A stretch of 64,000 bases of DNA from an uncultured Pseudodesulfovibrio sp. (GTDB lineage Bacteria > Desulfobacterota > Desulfovibrionia > Desulfovibrionales > Desulfovibrionaceae). Numbering within the stretch: the stretch's first letter is position 1; each line of letters opens with the position of its first letter. The DNA lies in NCBI RefSeq assembly GCF_963664965.1, contig NZ_OY761823.1, positions 2,118,001-2,182,000 of the forward strand, in the 5' to 3' direction. This document shows positions 9,376 to 23,846 of this stretch, in pieces. A program made the translations under genes and the position numbers. Below the pieces are notes generated by a model. It was given only the letters and a program-made list of their open reading frames with translations, did not search any database and was not told the DNA's origin.

Positions 9376-9869
9376 TATGAGTCTCCTTGTTGTTGGATTT
9401 CTTGCAAACACGAGGAGAATTTTGCATAGACCGTGCCCGTTCATCCTTTTTGCGATATTCTGTGTCTCATTTATTTGTATTTGCAGGTGAATATTTTGCC
9501 CTGCTCCCTTTCTGAATCTGGAATTGCTCAATCTGAATATGTTGCATGATAGCGGCAAGGCATTGCAAAGACTGAATACGCGTACCTTGAGCTGCCATTT
9601 ACCTTCAAAATGTTTTTCATTCTCTTTCTTTTGGCTTCTGTTTTTGATCTCGCAATGCTTTGGCAAAGTGTTTTGCCAGATAAATAGTGTGTTTTTTTAG
9701 TTGGTTCTGAGATTCAAACCATTGTGTCTTATTTGGTATGTCCGTTGCTATAGCTCCCGGATAAGTCGTTTGAAACAGATTCATGATGCAGCCGAAAATC
9801 GGTTGTTGCTGTGAGAAAACTGAATCTGTCTGCCGAGGTTTGGCAGGATTTAAACCGGGAGAAAATGGA
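9376..9869. other. intergenic promoter region between divergent genes
   Basis: 494 bp without a convincing gene. It must carry the promoters of the hypothetical gene at 8758 (minus) and the chemoreceptor (plus). The only clear structure is the palindrome at 9661-9678. The chemoreceptor frame extends upstream to an ATG at 9783, but that one lacks a ribosome-binding site. Confidence 0.6.
9661..9678. promoter_or_regulatory. palindromic operator candidate upstream of chemoreceptor
   Basis: TGGCAAAGTGTTTTGCCA: two perfect 7-bp arms (TGGCAAA/TTTGCCA) around a 4-bp spacer. There is no T-run, so a terminator is unlikely. The spacing (GG-N11-GC) does not fit a sigma-54 element, so a repressor or activator site is the simpler reading. 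Confidence 0.45.
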
Positions 9870-11576
9870 ATGCTCAAGAACATGAAAATAAGCGCCAAGT
9901 TGTACCTTGGGTTCGGGCTGTTGACCTGTCTGGTTATCGCACTGGGAGGAGCTGGAGGATTTACCCTGCATAGGGTTGTTGAGCGTGTCGGGTGCGTTGA
10001 AGACGCGCATCTCATGTCGACGCGGTTGCTTGAAAGCAGGCGTCAGGAGAAAAATTTCATTATTCGGGGTGACGACCTCTATGTTGAAAGAGTGACAAAG
10101 GCTGTCGCTCAAATCGTTGATTTGTCGAATGGCGTGAAGAAACGTTTTTCGAATACTGTTGATGTTTCGGCTGTGGACGGAATCCGGGCTGCGACGGAAT
10201 CCTACGGGGACGCGTTTACCGCATTGGTTGCGTTGATGCGGCAGCAAAAGGCTATGGTCGAAACGGTCGGTGCAGATGCAGAAGAGCTTGAGAGTCTGGC
10301 CGTCAAGGTAAAGGCGACGGACAAGCAGCTTGTCGCATCAGCGCGAAAAGCCATTGCCTTGTGCGATGCCTTTACCAAGGAACAGAAGACCGTGATGGAT
10401 GCCGAGGTCCGCAGTGCCTACTGGACCATAGGGGGTGCGGTTGGAGTGGCCGTATTGTGCGGCCTGATTGCGGTTTGCACGATTCCCGGGACAATCAGCC
10501 GGTCCATGCAGGCCGGTGTGCAGTTCGCCGGGGCCATGTCGGGTGGTGATTTTTCCAGGGAGCTGGACGTTGAACGAAAGGATGAAATCGGGGCTTTGGC
10601 CCTTGCCTTGAATACGATGACTGTCCGGCTGCGGGAGGTTGTGACAGAGGTGAAAGAGGCAGCCGAAAATACGGCTTCCGGCAGCACTGAGCTGTCCACT
10701 ACTTCCGATCTGTTGTCGCAGGGAGCGACGGAGCAGGCCGCCAGTGTCGAGGAGGTCGCGGCAAGCATGGAGCAAATGACGGCTGGCATCAACAGTAATG
10801 CCGAGAATGCACAGGCCACGGAGAAGCTGGCGCGTGTGGCTGTGGATAACGCGAGAAAGGGTGGAGAAGCCGTGTCTCAGACTGTACTCGCCATGAGGAA
10901 TATAGCTGAAAAGACTTTAATTATTGAAGATATTGCGCGTCAGACGAATCTGCTTGCACTGAACGCCGCCATTGAAGCCGCTCGTGCCGGAGAACACGGA
11001 AGGGGATTTGCCGTGGTTGCGGCTGAAGTGAGAAAGCTGGCTGAGCACAGCAGGCTTGCTGCCGGTGAGATCAGCGAAATATCGGCCTCAAGTGTCGATA
11101 TTGCCGACGAGGCTGGGGAATTGCTGGCTCTCATTGTTCCCGATGTCGAGCAGACGGCTCAGCATGTCGAGGAGATCGCTGCGGCATGTAGTGAACAGAA
11201 CGTCGGTGCCGACCAGATCAGTGCCGCCTTGCGGCAGTTGGATAATGTCGTGCAGCAGAACGCCTCGGCCTCCGAAGAGATGGCTGCGACTTCTCAGGAA
11301 TTGGCGGTGCAGGCCGAACGGCTGCAATCCTCAATGGCGTTTTTCCATATGGGAGTGGAAGAGGAAGTGGAGACCATTCCTCAACAGTCAGCCTCTGCCG
11401 GTATGTGGCAGCCTTTCAATGGGAATGGGAGGGGCACGGTTGTTGTTCACCCTCAGGTGCAACGTGCTGAAATCATGCCGTCATATTGTTCTCCGCTACC
11501 ATTTGATGAAGGGAACGAAGGTGTCGGGCGTGTCGTGACTGACCGGTTTGATCCCTCCGTTCGCGAAGAGTGGTGA
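9870..11576 (+). CDS. methyl-accepting chemotaxis protein
   Basis: Start chosen at the ATG at 9870, preceded by GGGAGAAAATGGA, giving 568 residues. TM1 is near residues 14-36 and TM2 near 185-206, enclosing a mainly helical ~150-residue periplasmic ligand domain. A HAMP segment follows, then a long coiled-coil signalling domain with the invariant hairpin [20 protein letters not shown] and [16 protein letters not shown]. The protein couples an external signal to CheA/CheW. It ends in a ~60-residue tail after the signalling coil without the CheR-docking pentapeptide NWETF. It overlaps no neighbour and is followed after 7 bp by a hybrid kinase. Confidence 0.93.
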
Positions 11577-11583
11577 GGTGGGC

Positions 11584-13926
11584 ATGACGAAAATGAACAT
11601 GGTTCAAGGTGGAAACAGGATTCGGACGGAAGTGCTGGCGGCAGGATGCAGTCAGCCTCTGTTTCGAATGGTGATGGAGGTTCTTGATGAATTCAGTGTC
11701 AAGGTACACCGGGTGGATGCAGACGAGGCTGTGGATTTGAACGGGTTCTCCTCCGAAACGGTTCTTATTGTAGGTGATATGTTCTCGGAAGCGGCTTCCA
11801 TTGAGTTTGTTCAACACGTTCTTGAACAGGGACTGCGGGCGACGGTCGTTGCCGTATGTCATCGGGGAAATTCTTCTCATGCCGTGGGATTGGAGCGGAT
11901 CGGCGTCTACAACATCATGGAAGACGGGCCGATGATGAAAACGAAGCTGGCGACTGTCATGCGCCGTGTCTTCTGGATGATTGACAATGAAAGAAGACTG
12001 GAATCCGTGACGCGGGCGGTCGAGGGAGCGGAAAGGAATTATAAAAAGCTGTTCAACAAGTCCCCTGTCGGTGTCTTTCTTTCTGATTCATCGGGGCGGC
12101 CTCATTCCGTGAATATCGAAATGGCTCGTCTTCTCGGTGCCTCCTCTCCAGCTGAGGTTTTGCAGGAGTATGCGAACTTTGGGGATCAGCTGTATGTCGT
12201 TCCCGGACGAAGGAGGGAGTTGGTCAAAGCCCTGTCCAGAAAAGGGCAGATTTTCAATTTTGAATTCGAGGCTCGGCATCTGCGCCTCGGGCGGACGTGG
12301 TTTGCCATGAATGCGAGCATTCGGGAGCGGTTGCCGGACGGTTCTTTTCTTATCGACGGCTTTGTTCGGGATATTTCTGAACGTAAAAGGGCTGAAGCGG
12401 CAATACGGTATTCCGAGCGAAAATACAGGCATCTTTTCGATCATGCCGGTGAAGGAATCATGTTGATTGACTCCGATCTGCTGATTGCCGATGTCAATTT
12501 GGCTGCGGTGCAGTTGTTCGGCGTCGGTTCATCCGACGACCTGACTGGTCGAAGTTTCGTTGATTTTCTGTCCCCGGAAGATACATCCCGTTTTCGTGTT
12601 GCGGATGCCGATTCCGGAATAGGTGAGGTGGAACGGCGTGAAATGCGCCTGCTCAGAGCCGACGGTATGGAAATATATGTAGCCGCAACCTTTCGGTATA
12701 ATTCCGATGACAGGTTTTTTCAGGTTATCCTCAGCGATATTACCACCCGGCGAAATCTTGAGAAGACATTGCGTGCCGCAAGGGATTGTGCAGAGTCCGC
12801 AAGCCGGTCCAAATCGGATTTTCTCGCCAATATGAGCCATGAGATCAGGACTCCCCTGAACGGGATCATGGGGATGCTGCAATTGCTGTGGGAAACCCCG
12901 CTCAATGAGGAACAGGCTGACTATGTCGATTCCGCGTTGATGTCATGCGCGAGGCTGACTTCGCTGCTCGGGGATATTATGGATATATCGAAGATCGAGG
13001 CCGGACGAGTTGATCTTGCTCATGAGCCTCTTGATTTGGGTTCCATTCTGGATTCTGTTCGTCATTTGTTCGGTATTGCGGCGCGGCAGGCCGGAATACG
13101 TCTCAAAGTCAGGTGCGAATCACCGTTTCAGGGTGCTTTCGTGGGGGACAGCGTCAAAATACAGCAGATTCTGAATAATCTGGTGGGCAATGCCATCAAA
13201 TTTACTTCGGAAGGCACTGTCGATGTCGAGTTGGGGCTCCTTCGGCACCCGGAAAAGGGGAAGGTCAATTTGCTTATTTCAGTGAGTGACACCGGAATCG
13301 GCATGTGTCCGGCCATGTTTGACCATGTTTTCAAGCCGTTTACGCAGGTTGATAGCAGTTTTACCCGGAAATATCAGGGCGCGGGCCTTGGTCTTTCCAT
13401 TGTCAAAAACCTTGTGCAGCTCATGGGGGGAGCGTTGCAGATCGAGAGTCTGCCGGGGGAAGGTACGTCTGTTCACTGCTGCCTGACCTTGGAGAGAAAA
13501 GAGCCGGCTGTTTTGATGCCTTCCCTTTCTGTCGGAAACGATGACCAGCACAAAAAAGGACGCCGTGTCTTGGTTGTCGAGGATGATTACGTCAATAGGA
13601 CGTTTCTTGTCCGCGTTCTGGAAAAACAGAAGTATCGTGTGCGGGCCGTGGACAATGGTGAATCCGCCTTGAACGAGCTTCGTACCCGTGCGTATGACGC
13701 CGTGCTGATGGATGTTCACATGCCAGTGATGGGGGGCGTTGAAGCGGCAAAGGCGATACGTGCCGGGAAGGCCGGACCGCAGGTTCGGAATATTCCCATA
13801 GTCGCGGTCACCGCCTGTGCCGTGAAAGGAGAACGGGAACGGTTCATCGAAGCCGGGATGAATGATTATCTGCCGAAGCCGGTTGATATGGATTCGCTTT
13901 ACAAGGTGCTTGAGTGCGTGGGGTAG
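11584..13926 (+). CDS. hybrid histidine kinase with two PAS domains and C-terminal receiver
   Basis: I use the ATG at 11584 (GAGGTGGGC upstream; 780 residues) rather than a TTG inside the chemoreceptor gene. An N-terminal ~130-residue region resembles a degenerate receiver. It is followed by two PAS domains (YKKLFNKSPVGVFLSD and YRHLFDHAGEGIMLID), HisKA (NMSHEIRTPLNGIMGML, His419), the ATPase domain (NNLVGNAIKFTSEGT, GAGLGLSIVKNL) and a C-terminal receiver with Asp710 in VLMDVHMPVMGG. No transmembrane helix is seen. Its position just after a chemoreceptor suggests a shared promoter. The receiver ends in YLPKPVDMDSL, the usual Lys motif. Confidence 0.92.
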   Translation: MTKMNMVQGGNRIRTEVLAAGCSQPLFRMVMEVLDEFSVKVHRVDADEAVDLNGFSSETVLIVGDMFSEAASIEFVQHVLEQGLRATVVAVCHRGNSSHAVGLERIGVYNIMEDGPMMKTKLATVMRRVFWMIDNERRLESVTRAVEGAERNYKKLFNKSPVGVFLSDSSGRPHSVNIEMARLLGASSPAEVLQEYANFGDQLYVVPGRRRELVKALSRKGQIFNFEFEARHLRLGRTWFAMNASIRERLPDGSFLIDGFVRDISERKRAEAAIRYSERKYRHLFDHAGEGIMLIDSDLLIADVNLAAVQLFGVGSSDDLTGRSFVDFLSPEDTSRFRVADADSGIGEVERREMRLLRADGMEIYVAATFRYNSDDRFFQVILSDITTRRNLEKTLRAARDCAESASRSKSDFLANMSHEIRTPLNGIMGMLQLLWETPLNEEQADYVDSALMSCARLTSLLGDIMDISKIEAGRVDLAHEPLDLGSILDSVRHLFGIAARQAGIRLKVRCESPFQGAFVGDSVKIQQILNNLVGNAIKFTSEGTVDVELGLLRHPEKGKVNLLISVSDTGIGMCPAMFDHVFKPFTQVDSSFTRKYQGAGLGLSIVKNLVQLMGGALQIESLPGEGTSVHCCLTLERKEPAVLMPSLSVGNDDQHKKGRRVLVVEDDYVNRTFLVRVLEKQKYRVRAVDNGESALNELRTRAYDAVLMDVHMPVMGGVEAAKAIRAGKAGPQVRNIPIVAVTACAVKGERERFIEAGMNDYLPKPVDMDSLYKVLECVG

Positions 13927-14001: not shown

Positions 14002-14295
14002 TTATGCTGTTACCGCAGTCAGCTTTACTTCCTTGTTTTCATTGAACGACAGGTCGAAGGCCTTGCCGTGTTTACTTAAAAAGTCTTCTTCCGCAATGAA
14101 TGGAACTCCGCCCACTTCGATTTGAGCGTCTTCATCCTCATCCGGTTCGTCTATGCCCAGACCGAGCACGATTTTGGCGTGTCAACCGCCGCCGACACTG
14201 TATTCGCGCAGGCGGATACAGCTTTCCTCATCTTCATCTTCCAGCATTGCCCGGAGCTTTTCCAGCATTTCTTCCGGGACAGTTACGGTAAACAT
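14002..14295 (-). CDS. HesB/IscA-like selenoprotein (TGA codon 38 = Sec)
   Basis: Reading from the ATG at 14295 (GGAGAATTGA upstream) gives MFTVTVPEEMLEKLRAMLED, then ...CIRLREYSVGGG, then an in-frame TGA at 14184-14182 (codon 38), then HAKIVLGLGIDEPDEDE... to TAA at 14002: 97 residues. The TGA replaces the conserved Cys of the HesB/IscA Fe-S assembly fold, as known for the HesB-like selenoprotein family (TIGR01911). Right after the TGA the RNA can form GUGCUC/GGGCAU with a GGUCU loop starting 18 nt downstream, fitting a bacterial SECIS. It is the last gene of the GRE operon, so a role in Fe-S handling for the radical-SAM activase is plausible. Gene callers would split it or call it a pseudogene. 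Confidence 0.88.
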
Positions 14296-14384
14296 ATTCA
14301 ATTCTCCGTTTTGTTTCTAGTTAGGCCATGGCAGGTTTCAGTCCGTACCCGGCACCTTCCCCAAGACAATGGTCAATATATGCT

Positions 14385-14951
14385 TTAAAATTGCCGCTCG
14401 GAATTGGCTGTATGCGTCTGTGCATTTCTCTTCGGCAATTCCGTGCTGCAATTCAGTTTCAAGGGCAATTCCTGCTCCTGCTCGGTGTCTTCCTGTATGG
14501 AAGCGGGGTCGAGAAGCAGGTGAGCGCAGATGTTTGCCGCTGATTCCACATAGTCGAGGCATATTCCTTTCGACTCGGAGTTCGGATCACGATCCTTGCT
14601 CAGGATTCGGCAGCAGATACTTCCGTGACGGGCAGAAAAGCGGTCATGCAATTCCTTGGATGCCTTGCGTACCTGTTCATCTTCCACGGGCAGAGGGCCT
14701 TTGCCGAGGATCAGGCTTTGAGCCATGACCGCTCCGGCAAGCGCGCCGCAGACACACCCTGCGTCTCCGATGCCGCCGCAGAATCCCTTGGACAGCGCCA
14801 CGGCCATTTCTTCAGACAAGCCGCCGTCGAATTCCCGGTTGATGACTGTGAGCACCGCTTCGGAACAACACATTGAGCCGTTGCCATACAGCTCTCTGGC
14901 GTCTCGGCCGATTTTTCCGATGAGTTCTTCGGCGTTCTGGAGGGATTCCAT
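14385..14951 (-). CDS. C_GCAxxG_C_C family redox protein
   Basis: A 188-residue protein of the C_GCAxxG_C_C family (TIGR01909; usually ~140 residues), a probable thiol or metal redox protein of unknown function. The conserved cysteines are visible: GSMCCSEAVL near residue 28, GFCGGIGDAGCVCGALAGA near 58-76, SICCRIL near 112 and CLDYVESAANICAHLL near 132-147. The family core ends around residue 150. The last ~40 residues are low-complexity and acidic and do not look like the family; a slippery heptamer and another open frame lie at the stop (see findings). The start has AAGGA six bases before the ATG. It lies between the activase and the selenoprotein gene in the GRE operon. Confidence 0.85.
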   Translation of the reverse strand: MESLQNAEELIGKIGRDARELYGNGSMCCSEAVLTVINREFDGGLSEEMAVALSKGFCGGIGDAGCVCGALAGAVMAQSLILGKGPLPVEDEQVRKASKELHDRFSARHGSICCRILSKDRDPNSESKGICLDYVESAANICAHLLLDPASIQEDTEQEQELPLKLNCSTELPKRNAQTHTANSERQF

Positions 14952-14970
14952 GGTGTGTCCTTTTCTGTTT

Positions 14971-15864
14971 CTAGACGATCACGGTCTTGAGGCCGTGGTC
15001 GGTAAAACGCTGCTTGACGACTTCCAGCTGTTCCGGCGTGTATTCACCGGACATGCGGTATTCCCAACCAAGTGCCGCGTACTTGCTGCGGCCAAAGGCG
15101 TGGCACGGCATGACTTCGATTTCGTCCCGCCCGAATTCTTTGAAAAAGGCAGCCATGGCCGCGATGTTTTCGTCGGAATCGTTCATGTCCGGCATCAGCG
15201 GCATGCGGATGTGCACTTCCTTGCCTGAGGCGAGGGCGGCGCGCATGTTCCGCAGGATGATGGTGTTATCCACACCGGTCAGCTTCTTGTGCTGTTCCGG
15301 GTCCATGTGCTTGCAGTCAAACAGGAACAGGTCGGCCAGCTCGATGGTCTTGTCGAACCGTTCCTCCGGACAGTAACCGCAGGTGTCCACAGTGACATGG
15401 AAGCCTTCGTCTCGAGCGGCCTGAGCCATATCCAGAAAAAATTGTCCGCCTGAGGTGGGTTCGCCACCGCCGAAGGTTACGCCTCCGCCGGAGTTTTCAT
15501 AAAACAGTGCATCCTTACGCACGATTTTCATGACTTCCTCGACGGTCATTTCCTTGCCGGACATTTCGCGTGCTTTGCTCGGACAGACGTCCGCGCATTT
15601 GCCGCAGTCGGTACATTTTTCGATGTCCCAGACAGACTTCCCATTTTGGATGGTCACTGCGTCGTTGGGGCAGACCTCTGTACAGCCACCGCAGCCGGTG
15701 CACAGGTTTTCGAAATACATCATCTGCGGGGTGGTTTTTTGCGATTCCGGATTGCTGCACCACAGACATTTCAGCGGACAGCCTTTCAGAAATACCGTGG
15801 TGCGTAGACCGGGGCCGTCATGTACGGACATGCGCTGTATGTTGTAAATATTTCCCTGACTCAT
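14971..15864 (-). CDS. glycyl-radical enzyme activating protein (radical SAM)
   Basis: A 297-residue radical-SAM activase. The start at 15864 has GCGGAGACTACG upstream. N-terminal MSVHDGPGLRTTVFLKGCPL leads into the CX3CX2C cluster motif CPLKCLWC, then two ferredoxin-type clusters (CTGCGGCTEVCPNDAV and CTDCGKCADVCP) as in activases of the non-PFL GREs. A glycine-rich SAM motif GGGVTFGGGEPT follows. Using SAM and electrons it abstracts hydrogen from the catalytic Gly of the partner, here the GRE encoded immediately upstream. A 13-bp stem-loop in the 119-bp gap probably lowers activase expression relative to the enzyme. Confidence 0.95.
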   Translation of the reverse strand: MSQGNIYNIQRMSVHDGPGLRTTVFLKGCPLKCLWCSNPESQKTTPQMMYFENLCTGCGGCTEVCPNDAVTIQNGKSVWDIEKCTDCGKCADVCPSKAREMSGKEMTVEEVMKIVRKDALFYENSGGGVTFGGGEPTSGGQFFLDMAQAARDEGFHVTVDTCGYCPEERFDKTIELADLFLFDCKHMDPEQHKKLTGVDNTIILRNMRAALASGKEVHIRMPLMPDMNDSDENIAAMAAFFKEFGRDEIEVMPCHAFGRSKYAALGWEYRMSGEYTPEQLEVVKQRFTDHGLKTVIV

Positions 15865-15932
15865 CGTAGTCTCCGCAAGTTGTTGTTTGCTTCTCACAGA
15901 GGGCTGGGGTGTCCTTTGTGGGGAGGGGAGGC

Positions 15933-15965
15933 GCGGGGCGGATTCCTGCAGAGAATCCGCCCCGC
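15933..15965. repeat. strong stem-loop between GRE and activase genes
   Basis: GCGGGGCGGATTC and GAATCCGCCCCGC form a perfect 13-bp stem with a 7-nt loop in the mRNA of both strands. There is no long U-run after it on the minus strand, so it is best read as an mRNA end-protecting or partial-termination element setting the GRE:activase ratio. Confidence 0.7.
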
Positions 15966-15983
15966 TGCTATATGGCTATGCCG

Positions 15984-18434
15984 TTAGGCTGCGTACTCGG
16001 TGCGTTTGATGATCTCGTTCTGCACACCGCAGTCGAGACGGGTGAAGTAGGCACTGAAGCCTGCCACGCGCACGACCAGATCCGGGTAGTTCTCCGGGTG
16101 GGCCTTGGCGTCCTTCAGGGTCTCGGAGCTGACGCAGTTGAACTGGATGTGGGAGCCGCCGAAGTCGCAGTAGCTCTTGATCAGGGAGATCAGGGTGCGT
16201 GCGCCGGTCGGGCCTTCGATTACCTGCGGGTTGACCTTCACGTTGAAGTGGTTGGCGCCGTAACGAACGGTGTCGATGGCTTCCGCGCCGGACTTGATGA
16301 GGGCGGTGATGCCTTCGGTGTCGGTTCCGGGCATTGCGGAAACGGAACCGTCGGTGAGTGCCACGCCTGCCTTGCGGCCGTTGGGCAGTGCGCCCATCAT
16401 GGAGCCGAAGTAGTTGTGGTAGGACAGGGAATAGGCGTCCAGCGGGGTGCGCTGGCCGAAGCAGTCCGGACCCTGTGCGTGGTGGATGGAGTCCACATCG
16501 CGGTAGAAACGCTGCACGAAGGCCTGGATTTCGGGCTCGTCATTGCCGTGCTTGGGAGCCTTGTAGCACATCTCACGGATTTCCTCGTAGCCTTCGAAGT
16601 TTGCCTTGATGGCTTCCAGCAACTGCTCCATGGTGAGCTGCTTGGTGTCGAAGACCAGGTGCTTGATGGCGAGCAGAGAGTTGGCGGCGTCGATACCGGC
16701 GGTCATGATGGGATTGACCTGCGGGTAGCGGGTGCCGCCTGCTTCTTCGCACATGCCCTTTTCAATGCAGCCGTCGTACATGGCGGAGCGGAAGACGCTC
16801 GGTACGACCTGAAGGCGGGCCATCTGGCTGAGGTCGGAGTGGGCACGGGAGATCTTGAACAGGTTATCGAGCTGCTTCTTGGTTGCTTCGTAAAGCTCTT
16901 CAAAGGTCTCGAAGGTGGTCGGATCGCCGGATTCCACGCCGACTTTCTTCTTGGTGACCGGGCACTTGCCGTCGTTGAGCACGAGCTCGACGACCTTGGC
17001 GAGGCAGGGCTGGTCTTCCTGAGTGATGAAGCTGCCCTTGCCGCAGACGCCGGTGGACACGCAGCCGTAGTTGCCGCAGTTGCGGGCGTCTTCAAGGGTG
17101 ATGCCGTCGGGGTACTGAGCAAAGCGGGCAAGCGTGCGCTGGACAACGACGTTGTTGTTGAGGATCTGGGGCTGGCCGGAACCGCCGCGGATGCACTCGA
17201 CAACTTTCTGCATGTAGGATTCCTTCAGCTTCGGATGGTAGAGCAGGGTCAGGGTGGGCTGAATGCTCTTCATCTGAATCTGGGTTTCCAGCATCAGTTC
17301 TTCCAGCTCGGTGGAAGCGTCTTCGCCATTGGCATCCACACCGCCGATGGTCATGGACTGGCCGGTGTGGCCGGACAGGGTCAGGGCGTAGGAGTTGCCC
17401 TGGTATTCACCGAGTTCAAGGTGCCTGATCCACTGGAATTTGAGCAGGGTCAGAACCTGTTCGCGGGTCAGGTTGCCTTCGTCGATGTCCTTCTTGAAGA
17501 AGGGGTACATGTACTGGCCGTAGCGACCCGGGGAGACAGCGCAGGCCATCTGCTCGGTGGCGACGCAGAGATGCAGGAACCAGAAGGACTGGATGGCTTC
17601 ACGGAAGTTGCGGGCCGGATGCTCGGGCACGCGGCGGCAGATTTCAGCGATTTCCAGCAGCTCGGCCTTGGCTTTCGGATCGGATTCTTCGGCGGCAGTC
17701 TGTTCGGCCAGATCGGCGTAGCGATGGGAATGGGCGATGACTGCGTCGAAGGTGATCAGCATGGAGCGGTACAGGTCGATTCTGTCCCTGTCGGCCAGCG
17801 TGGTGGGGCATTCTGCAAGACGTTTCTTGACGTCTTCGATGAGGTGGCGCAGACCCTTGTTCAGAACGAGACCGTAATCGGCGATACCGGAACCGGAGGC
17901 AACGGACACGTTCTCGTAATACATGCCGGCCTTGGCGTACTGCTTCGCGTTGACGCCGTATTTTTCCTTGTACATCTTGTTGTTCTGGTCGACGCAGGTG
18001 CGGCCTTTCCAGAGCTTGTAGGTCTTTTCAAGGAGTTCCTGCGTTTCGGCGGGGATTTTCATCTCGCCGAGAGAGGCCATTTTGGCCATCTGCATTTCTT
18101 CCTTGATCCAGGAAACGTTCCATTCGGGGTAGGCGTAAACGCCTGCGCGGACGCCGGTCAGGGTGCCGACGATGGGGTTGCCATCAAGGAAAATCTTTTT
18201 CTTGGTCAGCACGCGTTCAAAAAGCTTGGCGCGGATGTAGACAACAGGCTCGCCCTGATGCTTTTGGTAAACATCATTCATGAACTCCAGACGTTCGGGG
18301 TCCATGATCTGGGGGGCGGCCATGAGGAAATCCTTGTTTTCCTTGACCCGAGCTTCAGCGGTATCCCAGTTGATGCCGTAGCCCTTGGGGGCGGCATTCA
18401 TTTTTTCTTCATTGACCGTAGGATTAGTCGTCAT
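15984..18434 (-). CDS. glycyl radical enzyme with non-canonical active-site motif, substrate unknown
   Basis: An 816-residue GRE (PFL-like domain plus glycine-radical domain). The radical site is RVAGFSAYF with Gly792. The thiyl Cys is Cys458 in NYGCVSTGVCGKG. The position two after the Cys is Ser460, whereas choline lyase, glycerol/propanediol dehydratase, isethionate lyase, hydroxyproline dehydratase and arylacetate decarboxylases have Glu there. Pyruvate formate-lyase has CCVSP, but the double Cys is absent here. GSGQPQILNNN and LSGHTGQSMTIGGV are general GRE features. AGGAG precedes the ATG and a sigma-54 element lies 84-99 bp upstream. The operon continues with activase, C_GCAxxG protein and HesB-like selenoprotein. 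I cannot name the substrate. Confidence 0.93.
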   Translation of the reverse strand: MTTNPTVNEEKMNAAPKGYGINWDTAEARVKENKDFLMAAPQIMDPERLEFMNDVYQKHQGEPVVYIRAKLFERVLTKKKIFLDGNPIVGTLTGVRAGVYAYPEWNVSWIKEEMQMAKMASLGEMKIPAETQELLEKTYKLWKGRTCVDQNNKMYKEKYGVNAKQYAKAGMYYENVSVASGSGIADYGLVLNKGLRHLIEDVKKRLAECPTTLADRDRIDLYRSMLITFDAVIAHSHRYADLAEQTAAEESDPKAKAELLEIAEICRRVPEHPARNFREAIQSFWFLHLCVATEQMACAVSPGRYGQYMYPFFKKDIDEGNLTREQVLTLLKFQWIRHLELGEYQGNSYALTLSGHTGQSMTIGGVDANGEDASTELEELMLETQIQMKSIQPTLTLLYHPKLKESYMQKVVECIRGGSGQPQILNNNVVVQRTLARFAQYPDGITLEDARNCGNYGCVSTGVCGKGSFITQEDQPCLAKVVELVLNDGKCPVTKKKVGVESGDPTTFETFEELYEATKKQLDNLFKISRAHSDLSQMARLQVVPSVFRSAMYDGCIEKGMCEEAGGTRYPQVNPIMTAGIDAANSLLAIKHLVFDTKQLTMEQLLEAIKANFEGYEEIREMCYKAPKHGNDEPEIQAFVQRFYRDVDSIHHAQGPDCFGQRTPLDAYSLSYHNYFGSMMGALPNGRKAGVALTDGSVSAMPGTDTEGITALIKSGAEAIDTVRYGANHFNVKVNPQVIEGPTGARTLISLIKSYCDFGGSHIQFNCVSSETLKDAKAHPENYPDLVVRVAGFSAYFTRLDCGVQNEIIKRTEYAA

Positions 18435-18788
18435 TTTTATCTCCTGACTTCTTTTGAGAATTATCTTTGGAGTCGATTGAAAGGTTTGAGTTTTGTTCGC
18501 TTGTTCTTTTTGTCACTAGCACAGGGTGTGCCAGAGTGGTTTGTGAAGCAAAACAATGATGTAACTAGTTGTAATGATGAAGATTTATTCTTGGTGGTGC
18601 GGGTTTTGTGAGCCGTGAAAAATTATTTTTTTCGAAAAAATTTTTTCTTTTTCTAAAATTTTCTTTCGAATTGTGCATTGAGTTTTGGCTGCTTTTAAAG
18701 TAAAAGTCCGCCTGTATTCAAATTATCGAGGTTGTGAAATTTGTATTTTAGCAAAGAAAAGTTTTTTGATATCAGCCGGAAGGAAGTA
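18435..18788. other. divergent control region of GRE operon and its activator
   Basis: 354 bp holding the sigma-54 element at 18518-18533. Beyond it, about 40-70 bp upstream of the -24 box, lie a direct repeat of AATGATG (about 20 bp apart) around AACTAGTT, a possible activator site, and a very A/T-rich tract at 18615-18670. The regulator frame extends to a TTG at 18741, but the ATG at 18789 has the better ribosome-binding site. Confidence 0.55.
18518..18533 (-). promoter_or_regulatory. sigma-54 promoter of the GRE operon
   Basis: On the minus strand TGGCACACCCTGTGCT: an exact -24 box TGGCAC, the -12 GC and the required GG-N10-GC spacing. It points at the GRE start at 18434 and lies opposite a gene for a sigma-54 activator. 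Confidence 0.8.
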
Positions 18789-20246
18789 ATGACTCCGGCC
18801 ATGACCGCTATCTGGGATGATATGGGTATCGGCGTCGCCGTGGTCGATGCCGACGGTATCTGCGAGTACATGAATCCGATTCAGCGCCGCGCTGACGGTT
18901 TCAGCCGTATAATGGTGGAAGGGCAGCATATCACCAAGCTCTACGTGCCGCATGAACTGGCGTGTATTCCCACCATCGAATGTCTGCGTAAAGGCAAGCC
19001 CATCCTGAAGAAATCCTACTTTTACAAGACCACGAACCATTATCTCGCCAGTACGGTCACGGATTTTTTCCCACTGTATGACCGTGGAAAAAAGGATGGC
19101 GTCATAGCATTCACCATCTGGACCGGCTCGGCTCCGCTGGTAGACCGCAAGTCCCGTTCGAAAAAGACTGTTTCTTCCCGTACTCCTGCTCACGACTGTT
19201 ACTCCTTTTCCGATCTGGTCGGTAAGGATGCGAGTTTGCGGGAGGTGCTCGATGATGCGAAGACGGCTGCCAAATCTTCTTCACCTGTCATGATCTGGGG
19301 AGAGAGCGGTACCGGAAAGGAAGTGTTCGCGCAGGCCATTCATGCTGAAAGTGATCGGCGGGACCAGCCTTTTATCGCCGAGAACTGCGCCGCAATTCCC
19401 GAGAATCTCCTGGAAGCCATTCTTTTCGGCACGTCAAAGGGCGCGTATACGGATGCTTCCGACAAGCCCGGACTTTTTGAAGAGGCCAACGGCGGCACAT
19501 TGCTTCTGGATGAACTCAATTCCATGCCGTTGGGGTTACAGGCCAAGCTTTTGCGCGTGCTTCAGGAAAAACGGGTGCGCCGTCTCGGATCACGCACGGA
19601 AATTCCCGTGGACGTACGTGTCATCAGTATTTTGAACGAAGCGCCTCTCGATGCCGTAGGGCAGGGCATTCTTCGCAGTGACCTGTTTTACCGGCTGGCC
19701 GTGGTGGGCATTGCCGTGCCGCCCCTGCGTCACCGCAAGGAAGACATTCCGCTGCTGGCGCGTACCTTTATTGATCGCTCCGAGCAGAATCAGTCGACCA
19801 GTCCGATCGGCATTGATGACGATATCCTGGACATGTTTCTCAACTATGATTGGCCCGGAAATGTCCGTGAGCTGTTGCATGTCATTGAAGGAAGCCTCGC
19901 CCTGCTTGGCGGGCGGCCTTCAATCGAGTTGGCCTGTCTGCCTCGTCATTTCCGTGAAGCCTGCACGGGTGGTGGAGGAAGTACACCGCTCTTCCCGGCA
20001 CCGACGGCTCCGGTTCAGGAAAAGCGGGAGAATCATTCCGGTGGACATTCCTATTTTGATTATCAGACAGTCACGCGGAGCAGCGTGATTCCCCTTAAGG
20101 GGTGCGTTCAGGAATATGAGGCGCAGTGCATTCGTAACGTGCTGCGGGTCACTGGCGGCAATGTGGCCAAGGCTGCCCGTATTTTGCAGATTACCGGAGC
20201 CGGGTTGCGGTACAAGATCAAACAGCTTGATATTGAAGACGAGTAA
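18789..20246 (+). CDS. PAS-domain sigma-54-dependent transcriptional activator
   Basis: About 485 residues from the ATG at 18789 (GGAAGGAAGTA upstream); a TTG at 18741 would add 16. An N-terminal PAS domain (GIGVAVVDADGICEYMNPI) is followed by a sigma-54 AAA+ domain with Walker A GESGTGKE, the sigma-54 contact loop GAYTDA (usual form GAFTGA), Walker B GGTLLLDELN and R-finger region, then a Fis-type HTH at the end (VTGGNVAKAARILQITGAGL). The GTSKGAYTDASDKPGLFEEA style resembles RocR-type activators of amino-acid catabolism. It is divergent from the GRE operon and close to three sigma-54 elements, so it is the likely activator of all three units. Confidence 0.93.
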   Translation: MTPAMTAIWDDMGIGVAVVDADGICEYMNPIQRRADGFSRIMVEGQHITKLYVPHELACIPTIECLRKGKPILKKSYFYKTTNHYLASTVTDFFPLYDRGKKDGVIAFTIWTGSAPLVDRKSRSKKTVSSRTPAHDCYSFSDLVGKDASLREVLDDAKTAAKSSSPVMIWGESGTGKEVFAQAIHAESDRRDQPFIAENCAAIPENLLEAILFGTSKGAYTDASDKPGLFEEANGGTLLLDELNSMPLGLQAKLLRVLQEKRVRRLGSRTEIPVDVRVISILNEAPLDAVGQGILRSDLFYRLAVVGIAVPPLRHRKEDIPLLARTFIDRSEQNQSTSPIGIDDDILDMFLNYDWPGNVRELLHVIEGSLALLGGRPSIELACLPRHFREACTGGGGSTPLFPAPTAPVQEKRENHSGGHSYFDYQTVTRSSVIPLKGCVQEYEAQCIRNVLRVTGGNVAKAARILQITGAGLRYKIKQLDIEDE

Positions 20247-20303
20247 AAGTCGGAGAGGAAGATACTTGTTTTTAACAGGTTCTGATTTTCAGAAGAACAA
20301 AGC

Positions 20304-20337
20304 CGGCGTGCAGTTAAACTGCACGCCGTTTTGTTTT
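20304..20337 (+). terminator. rho-independent terminator between convergent genes
   Basis: CGGCGTGCAGTT AAACTGCACGCCG forms a near-perfect 11-bp hairpin followed by TTTTGTTTT. It ends the activator transcript. Confidence 0.92.
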
Positions 20338-20356
20338 GTCGATTGAAGGGGATGGA

Positions 20357-21091
20357 TTATAGCAGGGAGCGGCCCAGACAGACGGCACCTGCCAGCACGA
20401 TGACACCCATGAGCACTTTCCTGAACGTGTCGAGGTTGATGTGCTTTACAACGGGAAACGCGCACAGTGTGCCTATTATGGTCGCCGGTATGCCGTACAT
20501 GGCATATTCGAGCACTGCCGGAGTGTATAATCCCGCTCCTGCCTGAAGACCGCAGGTTATCGTGCTTCTGATCACGAAGAATACACCGAGCGTTCCCAGA
20601 AAGGCTCTCGGGTTCCAACCGACATACAGCCCGTATGCGCCGACAGGGGGACCGTCGAAGGATATGGCGGTTCCCAGAAGTCCTGCGCCGAATCCCGCTG
20701 CTCCGCCATAGGTCCATGACTCGCTGTGCGTTTCTTCGACGCGGAATGTGTGTTGCCAGTATACGTAATAGAGCAGCAAGGCTCCAACCGCCCCTTGCAG
20801 TATTGATCCGGATACGAATTGAAGGATGAACAGGCCGATGATGGAACCGGGCAGGGAGCCGACAATCATGGGCCACATCGCGGATACGCGGCAATGGCGG
20901 AAGTGCATGCAGGCGATGCAGCCGTCCATGATGAGGTTCAGGAGGCAACTGAGCGGGATGAGTTCATGCATGGGAATGAACATGGCCGCGAACGGCACCG
21001 CAACCAGTGCGCCGCCGATGCCGCTGACGCCGGAGACAAAACCGCCGACAAGCCAAGAGCAGAAAACGATGAGTGACATGGTATCAGGCAT
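20357..21091 (-). CDS. TauE/SafE-family membrane transporter
   Basis: A 244-residue protein with about seven to eight hydrophobic helices. It shows the two-repeat pattern of the TauE/SafE (DUF81) family: FVSGVSGIGGALVAVPF at the first repeat and GLLGTAISFDGPPVGAYGL at the second. Members export sulfite, sulfoacetate or other organic anions; the substrate cannot be read from sequence. It starts 24 bp after DUF4125, with GAAAGG upstream of the ATG, and shares that gene's sigma-54 promoter. In a GRE regulon it would export a product or import a substrate. Confidence 0.88.
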   Translation of the reverse strand: MPDTMSLIVFCSWLVGGFVSGVSGIGGALVAVPFAAMFIPMHELIPLSCLLNLIMDGCIACMHFRHCRVSAMWPMIVGSLPGSIIGLFILQFVSGSILQGAVGALLLYYVYWQHTFRVEETHSESWTYGGAAGFGAGLLGTAISFDGPPVGAYGLYVGWNPRAFLGTLGVFFVIRSTITCGLQAGAGLYTPAVLEYAMYGIPATIIGTLCAFPVVKHINLDTFRKVLMGVIVLAGAVCLGRSLL

Positions 21092-21115
21092 TGAAAGACC
21101 TTTCGCGCTTGGCGG

Positions 21116-21667
21116 CTAGGCCGTCAGGCCTGCTTCACATTCTTTCAGTGATCCGTAACCCAGCTTTTTCATAAGTAGTTCATATCGTTCCCGAACCAGA
21201 TTGTGATGCTTTTGTTGAGCGGCCATTATGTCATTATAATAGGCATCCATGGTGGCAGCGGAATAGGTCTGGAGTTCGCAGCCGAGATAGAGGCAGAAGC
21301 CTTCGTGTCCTTCCGGCTGGACGGTACGCGGAAACTGGGTTGCCACTTCCTTGCGCCATTCGCTTTCAGCGTTGACGATTTCCTCGAGTTGAAGGGTGTC
21401 GCGGAGAGGGGGGATCAACCTTTCCATGAGGGCGTATTTTTCGGTCATGAAATTGCGGCCTTCCGTTTCCGCCTGTTTCAGGTCGTCCAAATAGGATTCG
21501 AGAAAGGAGTCGGAAAGTACGCCGTGGGTCATTTCCCGCATGATGCGGAATGACTCTGGGCGTTCCTGGCAAGGCGAAGTGCCGCCCCGGTTGTTCACTG
21601 CCAGAAACATGTTCAGTTCACGGTCTATGATCTCTTGAATGAGATTTTTGCGATATTTTTCGGTCAT
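21116..21667 (-). CDS. DUF4125 family protein
   Basis: A 183-residue soluble protein recognised as DUF4125 from LIQEIIDRELNMFLAVNNRG, then ...CQERPESFRIMREM, LESYLDDLKQAETEGRN and MTEKYALMERL. The function is unknown. A CLYLGCELQTYSAATMD segment carries two Cys. The start at 21667 has GAGGATAAT just upstream; a longer reading to 21715 lacks a ribosome-binding site. It is the first gene behind a sigma-54 element and is followed by the TauE-type transporter, so it belongs to the GRE regulon. It may be an accessory enzyme of the pathway, but that is only inference. Confidence 0.85.
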   Translation of the reverse strand: MTEKYRKNLIQEIIDRELNMFLAVNNRGGTSPCQERPESFRIMREMTHGVLSDSFLESYLDDLKQAETEGRNFMTEKYALMERLIPPLRDTLQLEEIVNAESEWRKEVATQFPRTVQPEGHEGFCLYLGCELQTYSAATMDAYYNDIMAAQQKHHNLVRERYELLMKKLGYGSLKECEAGLTA

Positions 21668-22036
21668 ATTATCCTCTGTGGTGATTTTCGTGGAGTTGTG
21701 AGCGCAGGAATGCATTCAGTCAAATGAAAAAAGTAACTTGCGGGCGGTGTGCAAAGCCGGTGCCGGATTTGCCTTTGCTCCCGATTTAGTGGGGTTTTGT
21801 TGCTTTTGTATTCTAAGTTGTTGAATTGTTTGCTTTGTTAACGCGAGTTTCTATTTTTGTATTTTTTTACTATGTAGGTCTGCCTGAATCCGGTGGGGTA
21901 AAAAAAATACGGAAAAAGAAAAATTTCTTAACATAAAGAAAGAATTTTTATCGCCCTGTGTGTGGTGGGTATAGGTGTGATCTATTTTTATCAATCTTTT
22001 TAGGTAATTGTGTCGATGGTGAAGAATTTCACTTGT
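21668..22036. other. intergenic control region between divergent sigma-54 units
   Basis: Apart from the -24/-12 elements listed separately, this A/T-rich stretch holds an imperfect inverted repeat near 21918-21950 (AAAAATTTCTT and AAGAAAGAATTTTT) that could be an activator site. I see no gene. Confidence 0.45.
21750..21765 (-). promoter_or_regulatory. sigma-54 promoter of DUF4125-tauE
   Basis: On the minus strand CGGCACCGGCTTTGCA: the -24 GGCAC and -12 TTGCA boxes with GG-N10-GC spacing, about 83 bp upstream of the DUF4125 start. Confidence 0.8.
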
Positions 22037-22052
22037 TGGCACCCTAATTGCT
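22037..22052 (+). promoter_or_regulatory. sigma-54 promoter of the APC permease gene
   Basis: TGGCACCCTAATTGCT, a full match to the consensus TGGCAC-N5-TTGCW. It faces the permease gene at 22335 and would give a leader of about 270 nt. Confidence 0.88.
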
Positions 22053-22334
22053 TTTGAGTGTGCAACAACTCGCGAGGTTGTGTGTAACAGAAGTGATTGA
22101 AAGGTACAGAGGACTTGTTCGCCCCTCAGAGGTCTGGGAGCGCTGCGTACCGCATGAGCGGTTTTTTGGAGGAGTCGGCGCTTCTCATCTCGATGTACAA
22201 TAAGGATTACGCCACACGGCAGTGGAGGTTGGAGACATACGGTCCGGTCGGTTTGCCGGATGTGTCTGCATGGGCCTGCCCTGAAAAAGCAGGGGGGGAT
22301 CTGCCGCGAACCCATTACATAGAAGAGATATTCG
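22053..22334 (+). promoter_or_regulatory. long structured 5' leader of the permease gene
   Basis: A 280-nt leader with three foldable parts. Domain 1: GUACA (22104-22108) with UGUAC (22194-22198), GAG/CUC next to it, and inside it GGGAGCGC (22136-22143) with GCGCUUCUC (22178-22186). Domain 2: AGACA (22233-22237) with UGUCU (22263-22267) and UCCGG with CCGGA. Domain 3: CCCUG/CAGGG around an A-rich loop (22279-22294). It matches no riboswitch class I know. A frame of 88 codons crosses it but overlaps the permease start and looks non-coding. Confidence 0.45.
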
Positions 22335-23846
22335 ATGTCACAAGAAAAGTTGGAATTAAATAAATCGCTTTCGCCGTCACAGGTGTGGGCACTGGCACTC
22401 GGGTCCATTGTCGGCTGGGGCTGCTTCGTGCTGCCCGGAGATATGTTTCTGCCTCAAGCCGGTGTGCTTGGGACGCTGATCGGTTTCAGCGTTGGTGCAT
22501 TTCTCATTTGTTTCGTGGCTGTCTGTTACAGCTACATGATCAAATACGCTCCCGTTGCCGGAGGAGCATTCGCTTATGCTTACGTGGGATATGGGCCTAC
22601 GGCAGCATTTGTCTGCGGCTGGGCGCTTGTCCTCGGTTATGTTGCCATCATCGGTATTGATGTTGCCGCACTTGCCTTGATTTTCCGTTTCCTTTTCCCC
22701 GGCGTTTTCGAATTCGGCTCGCTTTATTCGATTGCCGGATGGGAAGTCTACACCGGTGAAGTTCTGCTCATGACCGGAGCAACGCTCCTGTTCGGATTCA
22801 TGAATTACCGGGGAACCAGTTTCGCAGGAAAGTTCCAGGTGGTTCTCACCTTCCTGCTTACCGTAGGCATCGTATCCCTGTTCGTGGGTTCCTCGTCGTT
22901 GGAAACTGCCCAGATGCCCAACCTGTTCCCGCTTTTCGCTGAGCATCGCTCCGCATTTTCGTGTGTTCTCATCATTTTTGCCATCTCTCCCTTCCTGTTC
23001 GCAGGATTTGATACCGTGCCGCAGGCGGCTGAAGAGTTTACCTTTGAACCGTCTCGCGCACGCAACATCATGATCATCGCCATCCTGTGCGGTGTCGTTC
23101 TCTATTCCTTGGTGACTCTGGCTGTCGGTATCGCCATTCCGTATCCCGAGATGCTGGCAAAGATGGACGCCATGCGGGCTGCCGGCGGTACTGCATGGGC
23201 TACCGGTGAAGTCGCTGCAATGGCATTCGGCAAGCTGGGTGCCGTCATTCTCGCCTGTGCCGTCATGGGCGCAGTCTGCACCGGCATCAACGGTTTTTAC
23301 ATCGCTACCTCCCGCCTGCTGCTCAGCATGGCCCGCGGCCGCATCCTGCCCGCATGGTTCGGTGACATCCATCCCAAATACCGTTCGCCCTACAAGGCAA
23401 TCCTGTTCACCATCGCCATCGTGCTGCTGACTCCCTTTGCCGGACGTTCCGTTATCGTCTGGATCGTGGACATGAGCTCCGTTGGAACCGGTATCGGCTA
23501 TCTCTTCTCCTGTCTTGCTGCACGTCGAGTCCTGCTCGGCAGCCCTGACGTGGAAGACAAGGCCATGCGTCTGTTCTGCTGCATCATGGGTACGCTCGCA
23601 TCCGTGATGTGCATCGTGCTGCTGCTTATCCCTGGTTCCCCCGCCTATATCAGCGAGGCTTCCCGTTGGTGCATGGTCGCTTGGGTCGGCATGGGTGTTT
23701 TCTTCTACTTCTCCAACAAGAGTGAGTGGGCAAAGCTTCCTGAAGCCGAACTGCGTGCCAGCATCCTGGGCCGCGCTGATATTCCTGTGTTCTTCAAGAG
23801 CAAGGAACCGCAGGGACAGGTTCAGCCGCAAGGTGCAGGTGACTAA
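22335..23846 (+). CDS. APC-superfamily amino acid/amine permease
   Basis: A 503-residue inner-membrane protein with about 12 helices. The APC signature of helix 1 is SPSQVWALALGSIVGWGCFVL (substrate-binding GSIVGWG), followed by PVAGGAFAYAYVGYG and, in helix 6, FAGFDTVPQAAEEF. It imports an amino acid, amine or related compound by H+ or Na+ symport or exchange. It has its own sigma-54 promoter and a long leader, and the same control signature as the GRE operon, so it is the best clue that the GRE substrate is an amino acid or amine. The start has AGAAGAGA upstream. Confidence 0.9.
   Translation: MSQEKLELNKSLSPSQVWALALGSIVGWGCFVLPGDMFLPQAGVLGTLIGFSVGAFLICFVAVCYSYMIKYAPVAGGAFAYAYVGYGPTAAFVCGWALVLGYVAIIGIDVAALALIFRFLFPGVFEFGSLYSIAGWEVYTGEVLLMTGATLLFGFMNYRGTSFAGKFQVVLTFLLTVGIVSLFVGSSSLETAQMPNLFPLFAEHRSAFSCVLIIFAISPFLFAGFDTVPQAAEEFTFEPSRARNIMIIAILCGVVLYSLVTLAVGIAIPYPEMLAKMDAMRAAGGTAWATGEVAAMAFGKLGAVILACAVMGAVCTGINGFYIATSRLLLSMARGRILPAWFGDIHPKYRSPYKAILFTIAIVLLTPFAGRSVIVWIVDMSSVGTGIGYLFSCLAARRVLLGSPDVEDKAMRLFCCIMGTLASVMCIVLLLIPGSPAYISEASRWCMVAWVGMGVFFYFSNKSEWAKLPEAELRASILGRADIPVFFKSKEPQGQVQPQGAGD

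Follow-up and report, generated by a model that had tools for sequence, protein, structure and literature searches.

A sigma-54-associated gene island of Pseudodesulfovibrio centred on a glycyl-radical enzyme without the CXE glutamate and a HesB-like selenoprotein

Overall organization of the gene island

The window analysed here, a whole stretch of 64,000 nucleotides from an uncultured Pseudodesulfovibrio sp. (contig NZ_OY761823.1), contains a gene island built around a glycyl-radical enzyme (GRE). On the minus strand, the GRE gene is followed by those of the activase, a C_GCAxxG protein and a HesB-like selenoprotein; a second minus-strand unit runs from DUF4125 to TauE, and the intergenic gaps of 19–86 bp inside these units are compatible with two operons. 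A sigma-54 activator and a permease of the APC family, whose matches in the PDB are amino acid transporters, belong to the same set (Table 1). All of these genes had been named in an earlier note made from the DNA sequence, and all are located where it had put them. The clade of this GRE, its loss of the CXE glutamate, its invariant second cysteine and its HesB-like selenoprotein partner appear to be new; a GRE island with transporters is of a known kind. A Gly_radical search found no second GRE in this genome. Among the genes examined there is neither a dehydrogenase nor a microcompartment shell gene, as the note had also observed, and a microcompartment pathway was discarded for want of the latter. 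An ATG at 15864 is another possible start of the activase.

Table 1. Genes and regulatory elements of the island, in window coordinates
Feature	Position	Strand	Evidence
ErpA/HesB-like selenoprotein	14002..14301	-	open with TGA read as selenocysteine (residue 40); NF033940 140 bits
C_GCAxxG_C_C putative redox protein, optional member	14385..14951	-	PF09719 99.7 bits
GRE activase, radical SAM with ferredoxin-like clusters	14971..15897	-	TIGR02494 382 bits (cut-off 174)
Glycyl-radical enzyme	15984..18434	-	PF02901 (PFL-like) 534.6 bits, PF01228 (Gly_radical) 103.9 bits
-24/-12 element, GRE operon	18519..18533	-	YGGCACN5KTGC match
Sigma-54 activator, divergent from GRE operon	18741..20246	+	PF00158 204 bits, Fis-type helix-turn-helix
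TauE/SafE-family transporter	20357..21091	-	PF01925 101.9 bits
DUF4125 protein, all-helical model, optional member	21116..21715	-	PF13526 180.7 bits
-24/-12 element, DUF4125-TauE unit	21751..21765	-	YGGCACN5KTGC match
-24/-12 element, APC permease	22037..22051	+	YGGCACN5KTGC match
Hairpin-like element with GUUCGC, APC leader	22100..22135	+	conserved in relatives; weak structural evidence
APC-family amino acid permease, single-gene unit	22335..23846	+	PF00324 106.7 bits, PF13520 97.4 bits

Conservation of the gene set

Homologues of the GRE were searched in 348 genomes of the class, at least 170 of which gave a match at E 1e-100 or better. The matches listed fall into identity bands of 75–100% (36 rows) and 42–68%, followed by a gap to 35%. 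Each of the 36 top rows was studied as a locus; together they are referred to as group A, with the window included and the duplicates L102 and L103 dropped (L-numbers denote the loci of relatives compared). Full flanks, meaning about 8 kb on either side, are present in 24 of them, and in each of these 24 the activase, the HesB-like protein, the activator, TauE and APC all accompany the GRE, whereas DUF4125 (18/24) and the C_GCAxxG protein (10/24) are optional members. When all 36 loci are counted, those running into contig ends included, the figures are 35 for the activase, 35 for the HesB-like protein, 36 for the activator, 31 for TauE, 29 for APC, 22 for DUF4125 and 10 for C_GCAxxG. Genes in the relatives' loci were called by codon usage, with rough starts and with the selenoprotein cut at its TGA. 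The earlier note had proposed, as a check, to see whether four neighbours recur with the same GRE clade, which in group A holds for the HesB-like protein and APC but not strictly for the other two; the opposite outcome that it had named, homologues regularly found without these neighbours, was not seen among the close relatives, in which the core of six genes is complete in 24/24.

As a control, 55 loci of other GREs were taken from the same collection scan, 33 of them with full flanks. None of the 55 carries a HesB-like, TauE, DUF4125, APC or C_GCAxxG gene and two have a sigma-54 activator, a control only partly matched, because most of these loci come from other taxa (8/55 are titled Desulfovibrio or Mailhella). 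The wider clade, with 42–68% identity, was examined through 28 loci, the partial or low-identity matches G074, G079:C77, G338 and G076:C56 being left out. The HesB-like gene is kept here in 24/28 (12/12 with full flanks) and DUF4125 is found in 8/28, whereas TauE and APC are absent from all 28 and other transporters take their place, namely BCCT (L105), TRAP (L106 and others), an SsuA-like ABC system (L108 and others) and SDF (L121). The BCCT transporter of L105, a 68% relative, is of the betaine type, with 416 bits, under the cut-off of 650.

Carriers of the clade include the gut bacterium Desulfovibrio piger (group-A locus L034), Pseudodesulfovibrio and other relatives. Across the phylum, matches at E 1e-135 or better come from 14 of 395 genomes; they reach as low as 36% identity and include sister lineages. 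Ten of 398 Bacillota genomes match at E 1e-130 or better; G1220 (45%) lies inside the clade, and of ten other Bacillota matches seven were placed outside it and three (34–36%) have no tree placement. Downstream of the GRE operon of the window lie a chemoreceptor and a hybrid histidine kinase (9783–13926), and a close counterpart of the latter is absent from the other loci compared.

The GRE lacks the CXE glutamate and stands apart from known families

The protein is a member of the GRE superfamily, with a PFL-like barrel, a Cys loop (C458-V-S460), a glycyl loop around G792 and an activase that scores above the TIGR02494 cut-off. The position two residues after the catalytic cysteine sets it apart. 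All 64 clade rows (61 distinct) lack glutamate there and have Ser (39), Gly (20), Ala (4) or Thr (1), whereas the other aligned GREs have Glu in 53/53; Ser460 of the window GRE thus replaces the glutamate of the CXE eliminase motif. The available portions of PMC8473560 and PMC7077986 describe this motif as conserved among GRE eliminases and report that Glu-to-Gln variants of IslA and HypD lost activity. In a further set of 61 clade rows, C298, S354, G358, N674 and H729 are invariant, and these residues are rare in 21 outgroup rows. C298 aligns with D278 of HypD, in the strand carrying this substrate-binding Asp, which according to the accessible part of PMC7077986 contacts the substrate amine. 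Cysteine occurs at this position in only 1/53 outgroup rows of the first alignment, and the CXQ sister rows have none. No residues like Arg189/Gln193 and Trp374 of IslA are found at the aligned positions of the GRE.

The window GRE also falls far under every NCBIfam equivalog cut-off. The best score is that of HypD (NF043068, 494.8 bits against 1100), about equalled by IAD (493 against 1100) and followed by HpsG (467.9 against 1000), CutC (TIGR04394, 437.6 against 1050) and HPAD (388 against 1150). In the tree the CXE-less clade has 100/100 support, is separate from the 100/100 clades of IAD and HPAD, and has the CXQ rows (L169) as its sister; a quick tree of 90 rows gives the same clade. Arylacetate decarboxylases lie on the clade's side with weak support (78/90), and HpsG, HypD and the CutC-like row lie on the other. 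These sequence comparisons support the view that the GRE fits no characterised family tested; a place inside a characterised clade, which the earlier note had named as counter-evidence, was not found. The sister lineage and its pathway are unstudied: L169 (1-19013) has three tandem GREs, two CIQ and one CVQ, and their neighbours by Pfam are acyl-CoA dehydrogenases, an enoyl-CoA hydratase, an amidohydrolase and a POR-type oxidoreductase.

The closest known systems each share some features with the island. The IslA/IseG and HpsG loci of sulfidogens likewise combine a GRE, an activase and a transporter in sulfite-respiring hosts, and a TauE-like gene lies near the HpsG-type GRE of L193, a Pseudodesulfovibrio locus. 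Unlike the present GRE, these enzymes keep CXE and the Arg/Gln/Trp pocket and belong to a different tree branch, and none of the HpsG/IslA-type loci L191, L192 and L193 had a HesB-like, DUF4125 or APC gene nearby. HypD, which acts on an amino acid, is the best single-domain PDB match as well as the best equivalog, but its Glu436 and Asp278 are replaced here by Ser460 and Cys298. IAD and HPAD possibly share the same half of the GRE tree, but the IAD-like rows read keep CXE and no small HPAD subunit was recognised here. Benzylsuccinate synthase (BSS) and the methylalkylsuccinate synthase MasD, with C-M-S-P, also carry Ser two residues after the catalytic Cys; in contrast to them, the island encodes one large subunit, the window GRE has no Arg 13–16 residues after the Cys (TQED), and the BSS branch is distant, although long.

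A HesB/ErpA-like selenoprotein is the constant partner

Wherever full flanks are available, the clade carries the HesB-like protein (24/24 in group A, 12/12 in the wider clade), which in the subclade of the window usually contains selenocysteine (Sec). In the window its reading frame stays open only if TGA encodes Sec, which places U40 within a GGGUHAK context, and the protein falls within NCBIfam ErpA_rel (140 bits; cut-off 65). The genome has selA. A Gly-Gly-Sec-His context lies near the HesB-like matches in 32 of the 36 group-A loci, the exceptions to the exact context being L041, L100, L143 and L104, the last a locus cut by a contig end. TGA sites near HesB-like genes also occur in L117, L118, L165, L166 and L167. 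A Cys-type copy is present in several loci, and in many wider-clade loci the site pattern used found neither a Sec nor a Cys site; some of the 41 Sec and 25 Cys sites that it counted overall are chance matches. At the level of sequence, the Sec codon is conserved in group A. The RNA directly 3′ of the TGA folds modestly better than shuffled sequences (z -1.9). A-type Fe-S carriers end in a C-terminal Cys-Gly-Cys, which this sequence lacks.

The island is predicted to be one sigma-54 regulon

The earlier note had seen -24/-12 elements at all three transcription units. The strict pattern YGGCACN5KTGC has six matches in the 64 kb, against 0.79 expected and with six or more in 0/100 shuffles; three of the six precede the GRE, DUF4125-TauE and APC units, and the other three lie elsewhere in the window, one inside the APC gene. 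Conservation was assessed with a looser pattern, up to 500 bp upstream, in the window and 37 group-A loci (among them L102 and L103, which duplicate others). It occurs upstream of the GRE in 28/38, of DUF4125 in 14/20 and of APC in 29/31, against 5.6% of random stretches; for TauE, mostly second in its operon, the count is 1/30. On these statistics in the window and the group-A loci, a single sigma-54 regulon is a well supported prediction.

The activator had been described as a PAS/sigma-54 protein, of which the sigma-54 part stands and the PAS part is weak (TIGR00229, 18.4 bits, below the cut-off of 22.9). Its best full-length NCBIfam match is the proline-reductase activator PrdR, with 318 bits, under the cut-off of 795, and its N-terminal part taken by itself yields a single sub-threshold PAS match and no PDB match.

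The APC leader after the -12 box is 283 nt long (22052–22334). Its GUUCGC hairpin-like element (model R1) is kept in 13 Pseudodesulfovibrio-type loci, but the hairpin is weak: a two-sided change occurs in 1/7 pairs, the element is imperfect in the window itself, and it is present as a single copy in the genome. A riboswitch in the leader was rejected, since an Rfam scan of the window gave no family at gathering score and the sub-threshold matches lie in an AT-rich stretch upstream of the promoter.

DUF4125

DUF4125 looks like a fold without assignment. Its model is all-helical and confident, with a predicted local distance difference test (pLDDT) value of 91; assigning a function by fold was nevertheless dropped, as the best PDB match has an E of 1.5. 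Cys49-Gln50, Arg60, Arg87-Asn88 and Trp120 are invariant in 21 sequences. A DUF4125-like gene (L190:420-1058) is likewise located about 5 kb away from a BSS-type GRE (L190:6218-8812), which suggests that DUF4125 attends more than one GRE pathway, and an excerpt of PMC12583861 names DUF4125 in a limonene ring-cleavage operon.

Possible reaction and its alternatives

What reaction, then, would a GRE without the CXE glutamate catalyze? The most likely one, to which we give a probability of roughly 0.38, would be the cleavage of a C-S bond in an amino-acid-like sulfonate, for instance cysteate, to supply sulfite respiration. In such a pathway, the activator would switch on the three -24/-12 promoters and the APC permease would import an amino-acid-like compound; the activase would install the glycyl radical on G792, the radical would pass to C458, and the GRE would break a bond of the substrate without the CXE glutamate, the absence of which suggests a reacting carbon that probably carries no hydroxyl group. 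We propose that the selenoprotein supports the GRE as a redox, radical-rescue or acceptor partner. Cysteate would be converted into sulfite, pyruvate and ammonium with no dehydrogenase or shell required, and the sulfite would feed DsrAB respiration, with TauE, presumably an exporter, removing anionic product as a relief valve. An aminosulfonate substrate would explain the amino-acid permease, TauE, the lack of an aldehyde pathway and the loss of the hydroxyl-binding glutamate. The earlier note had read the permease as pointing to an amino acid or amine and TauE as leaving a sulfonate product open; an amino acid fits the permease, and the sulfonate hint is strengthened, although unproven.

Several observations favour this C-S cleavage. 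The TauE family is named for sulfite export, and its member is present in every full-flank group-A locus, within a core set whose accessory genes are missing from all control loci. The hydroxyl-binding glutamate is absent throughout the clade. The ABC binding protein of a sister subclade has its highest score with SsuA_fam (aliphatic sulfonate; 72.5 bits, under 163.5), and its only PDB match is SsuA (E 3.8e-4). Two group-A clusters (L132 and L104) are adjoined by HpsG-branch GREs, and the HpsG locus L193 has the TauE-like gene mentioned above. Moreover, dsrA lies 0.6 kb from the GRE and divergent from it in L112 (8688-14491), and 3.1 kb downstream on the same strand, past HesB-like and TPR genes, in L113 (3063-11342), followed in both by genes read as dsrB and dsrD. 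L112 and L113 come from related Desulfovibrionaceae genomes and may reflect one shared event. Of 16 chosen genomes, 14 have dsrA above the cut-off; of the remaining two, one is a D. piger genome with a split match and the other is incomplete. In its available part, PMC6278857 cites cysteate as a sulfite donor in Desulfovibrio organosulfonate respiration. As a separate observation, two or three HesB-like genes and a TPR gene occur with the GRE beside dsrAB in L112 and L113, in differing relative orientation.

Other observations weigh against it. The IslA/HpsG-like Arg, Gln and Trp are missing from the aligned pocket positions, the tree places the clade, weakly, on the arylacetate decarboxylase side and away from HpsG, and the SsuA match is sub-threshold. 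A CutC-like GRE adjoins the group-A cluster L143, and the CXQ-bearing GREs of L169 and the Bacillota member L224 lie beside acyl-CoA dehydrogenase or enoyl-CoA hydratase genes (called by Pfam in L169 and by our own reading in L224). The gene dsrA is common anyway, being found in 40/279 Bacillota, so its co-occurrence was taken as supportive only and not as proof. According to an excerpt of PMC6453916, D. piger, the carrier of L034, does not grow on taurine, which lowered taurine as a group-A substrate. Taurinivorans muris, which has CuyA, did not use cysteate according to the available part of its description; whether this GRE occurs there was not checked. Two findings disfavour isethionate and sulfopropanediol: the GRE has neither CXE nor the IslA/HpsG residues, and D. 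piger encodes another two GREs that exceed the HpsG cut-off, one of which may be its published IslA.

The GRE could also be a radical decarboxylase, a distant cousin of IAD and HPAD, acting on an amino or organic acid imported by APC, with TauE or EamA exporting the product. This is consistent with the tree side that it shares, weakly, with the HPAD/IAD-like rows, with an IAD score about equal to that of HypD, with the high scores of the CXQ relatives with the IAD and HPAD models (532 and 486 bits), and with the acyl-CoA genes near distant members. We consider it rather doubtful, given that the HPAD and IAD-like rows keep Glu where readable (GCVE in L218 and L219), that a sulfate reducer would gain no evident donor or acceptor from amino acid decarboxylation alone, and that TauE in 24/24 loci and dsrAB beside L112 and L113 would be left unexplained. 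A classical C-N or C-O lyase for an amine or amino acid, of the choline or hydroxyproline type but with altered geometry, would suit the APC permease of group A, the betaine-type BCCT beside L105 and the rank of HypD as best equivalog and single-domain PDB match. It is unlikely, however, for eliminases need the CXE Glu according to the portions of PMC8473560 and PMC7077986 available, all clade rows lack it, and Asp278 of HypD is Cys in the window GRE.

Pyruvate formate-lyase has two active-site cysteines, which C298 and C458 recall, and the Ser two residues after the Cys is shared with BSS and MasD. These features, together with the DUF4125-like gene near the BSS-type GRE and the limonene operon, would fit C-C chemistry, either addition of the substrate to fumarate or a PFL-like, CoA-dependent cleavage with two cysteines. 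We regard such chemistry as very unlikely. BSS is far from the clade in the tree (on a long branch, so that its place is unsure), the Ser varies to G, T or A within the clade, and no genes for BSS-type extra subunits were recognised, with no family search aimed at them. As stated in the accessible part of PMC12358834, BSS and the methylalkylsuccinate synthase MASS bind fumarate through Arg, which the window GRE lacks in the corresponding stretch.

Beyond C-S cleavage of one sulfonate, we tentatively suggest that the clade may form a new mechanistic class, in which no CXE base is used, C298 works with the thiyl Cys, and the ErpA-like selenoprotein is used in turnover or in repair of the radical. 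Such a class would have diversified among sulfite-respiring bacteria with exchange of its transporters (APC, BCCT, TRAP and SsuA-like ABC), acting on several organosulfur compounds or amino acids.

Significance

GREs drive anaerobic steps such as the release of trimethylamine and H2S in the gut. No description of this GRE system or of a link between a GRE and a selenoprotein was found in open-access full text; subscription journals were not covered, and the system may be described there. The clade, carried by D. piger in the gut, matches none of the NCBIfam equivalogs and no longer has the residue underlying published eliminase mechanisms. The conserved selenoprotein beside the GRE, if functional, would tie selenocysteine to glycyl-radical catalysis. 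If the substrate is indeed a sulfonate, the island would represent a further source of H2S; otherwise, it would represent a new radical reaction.

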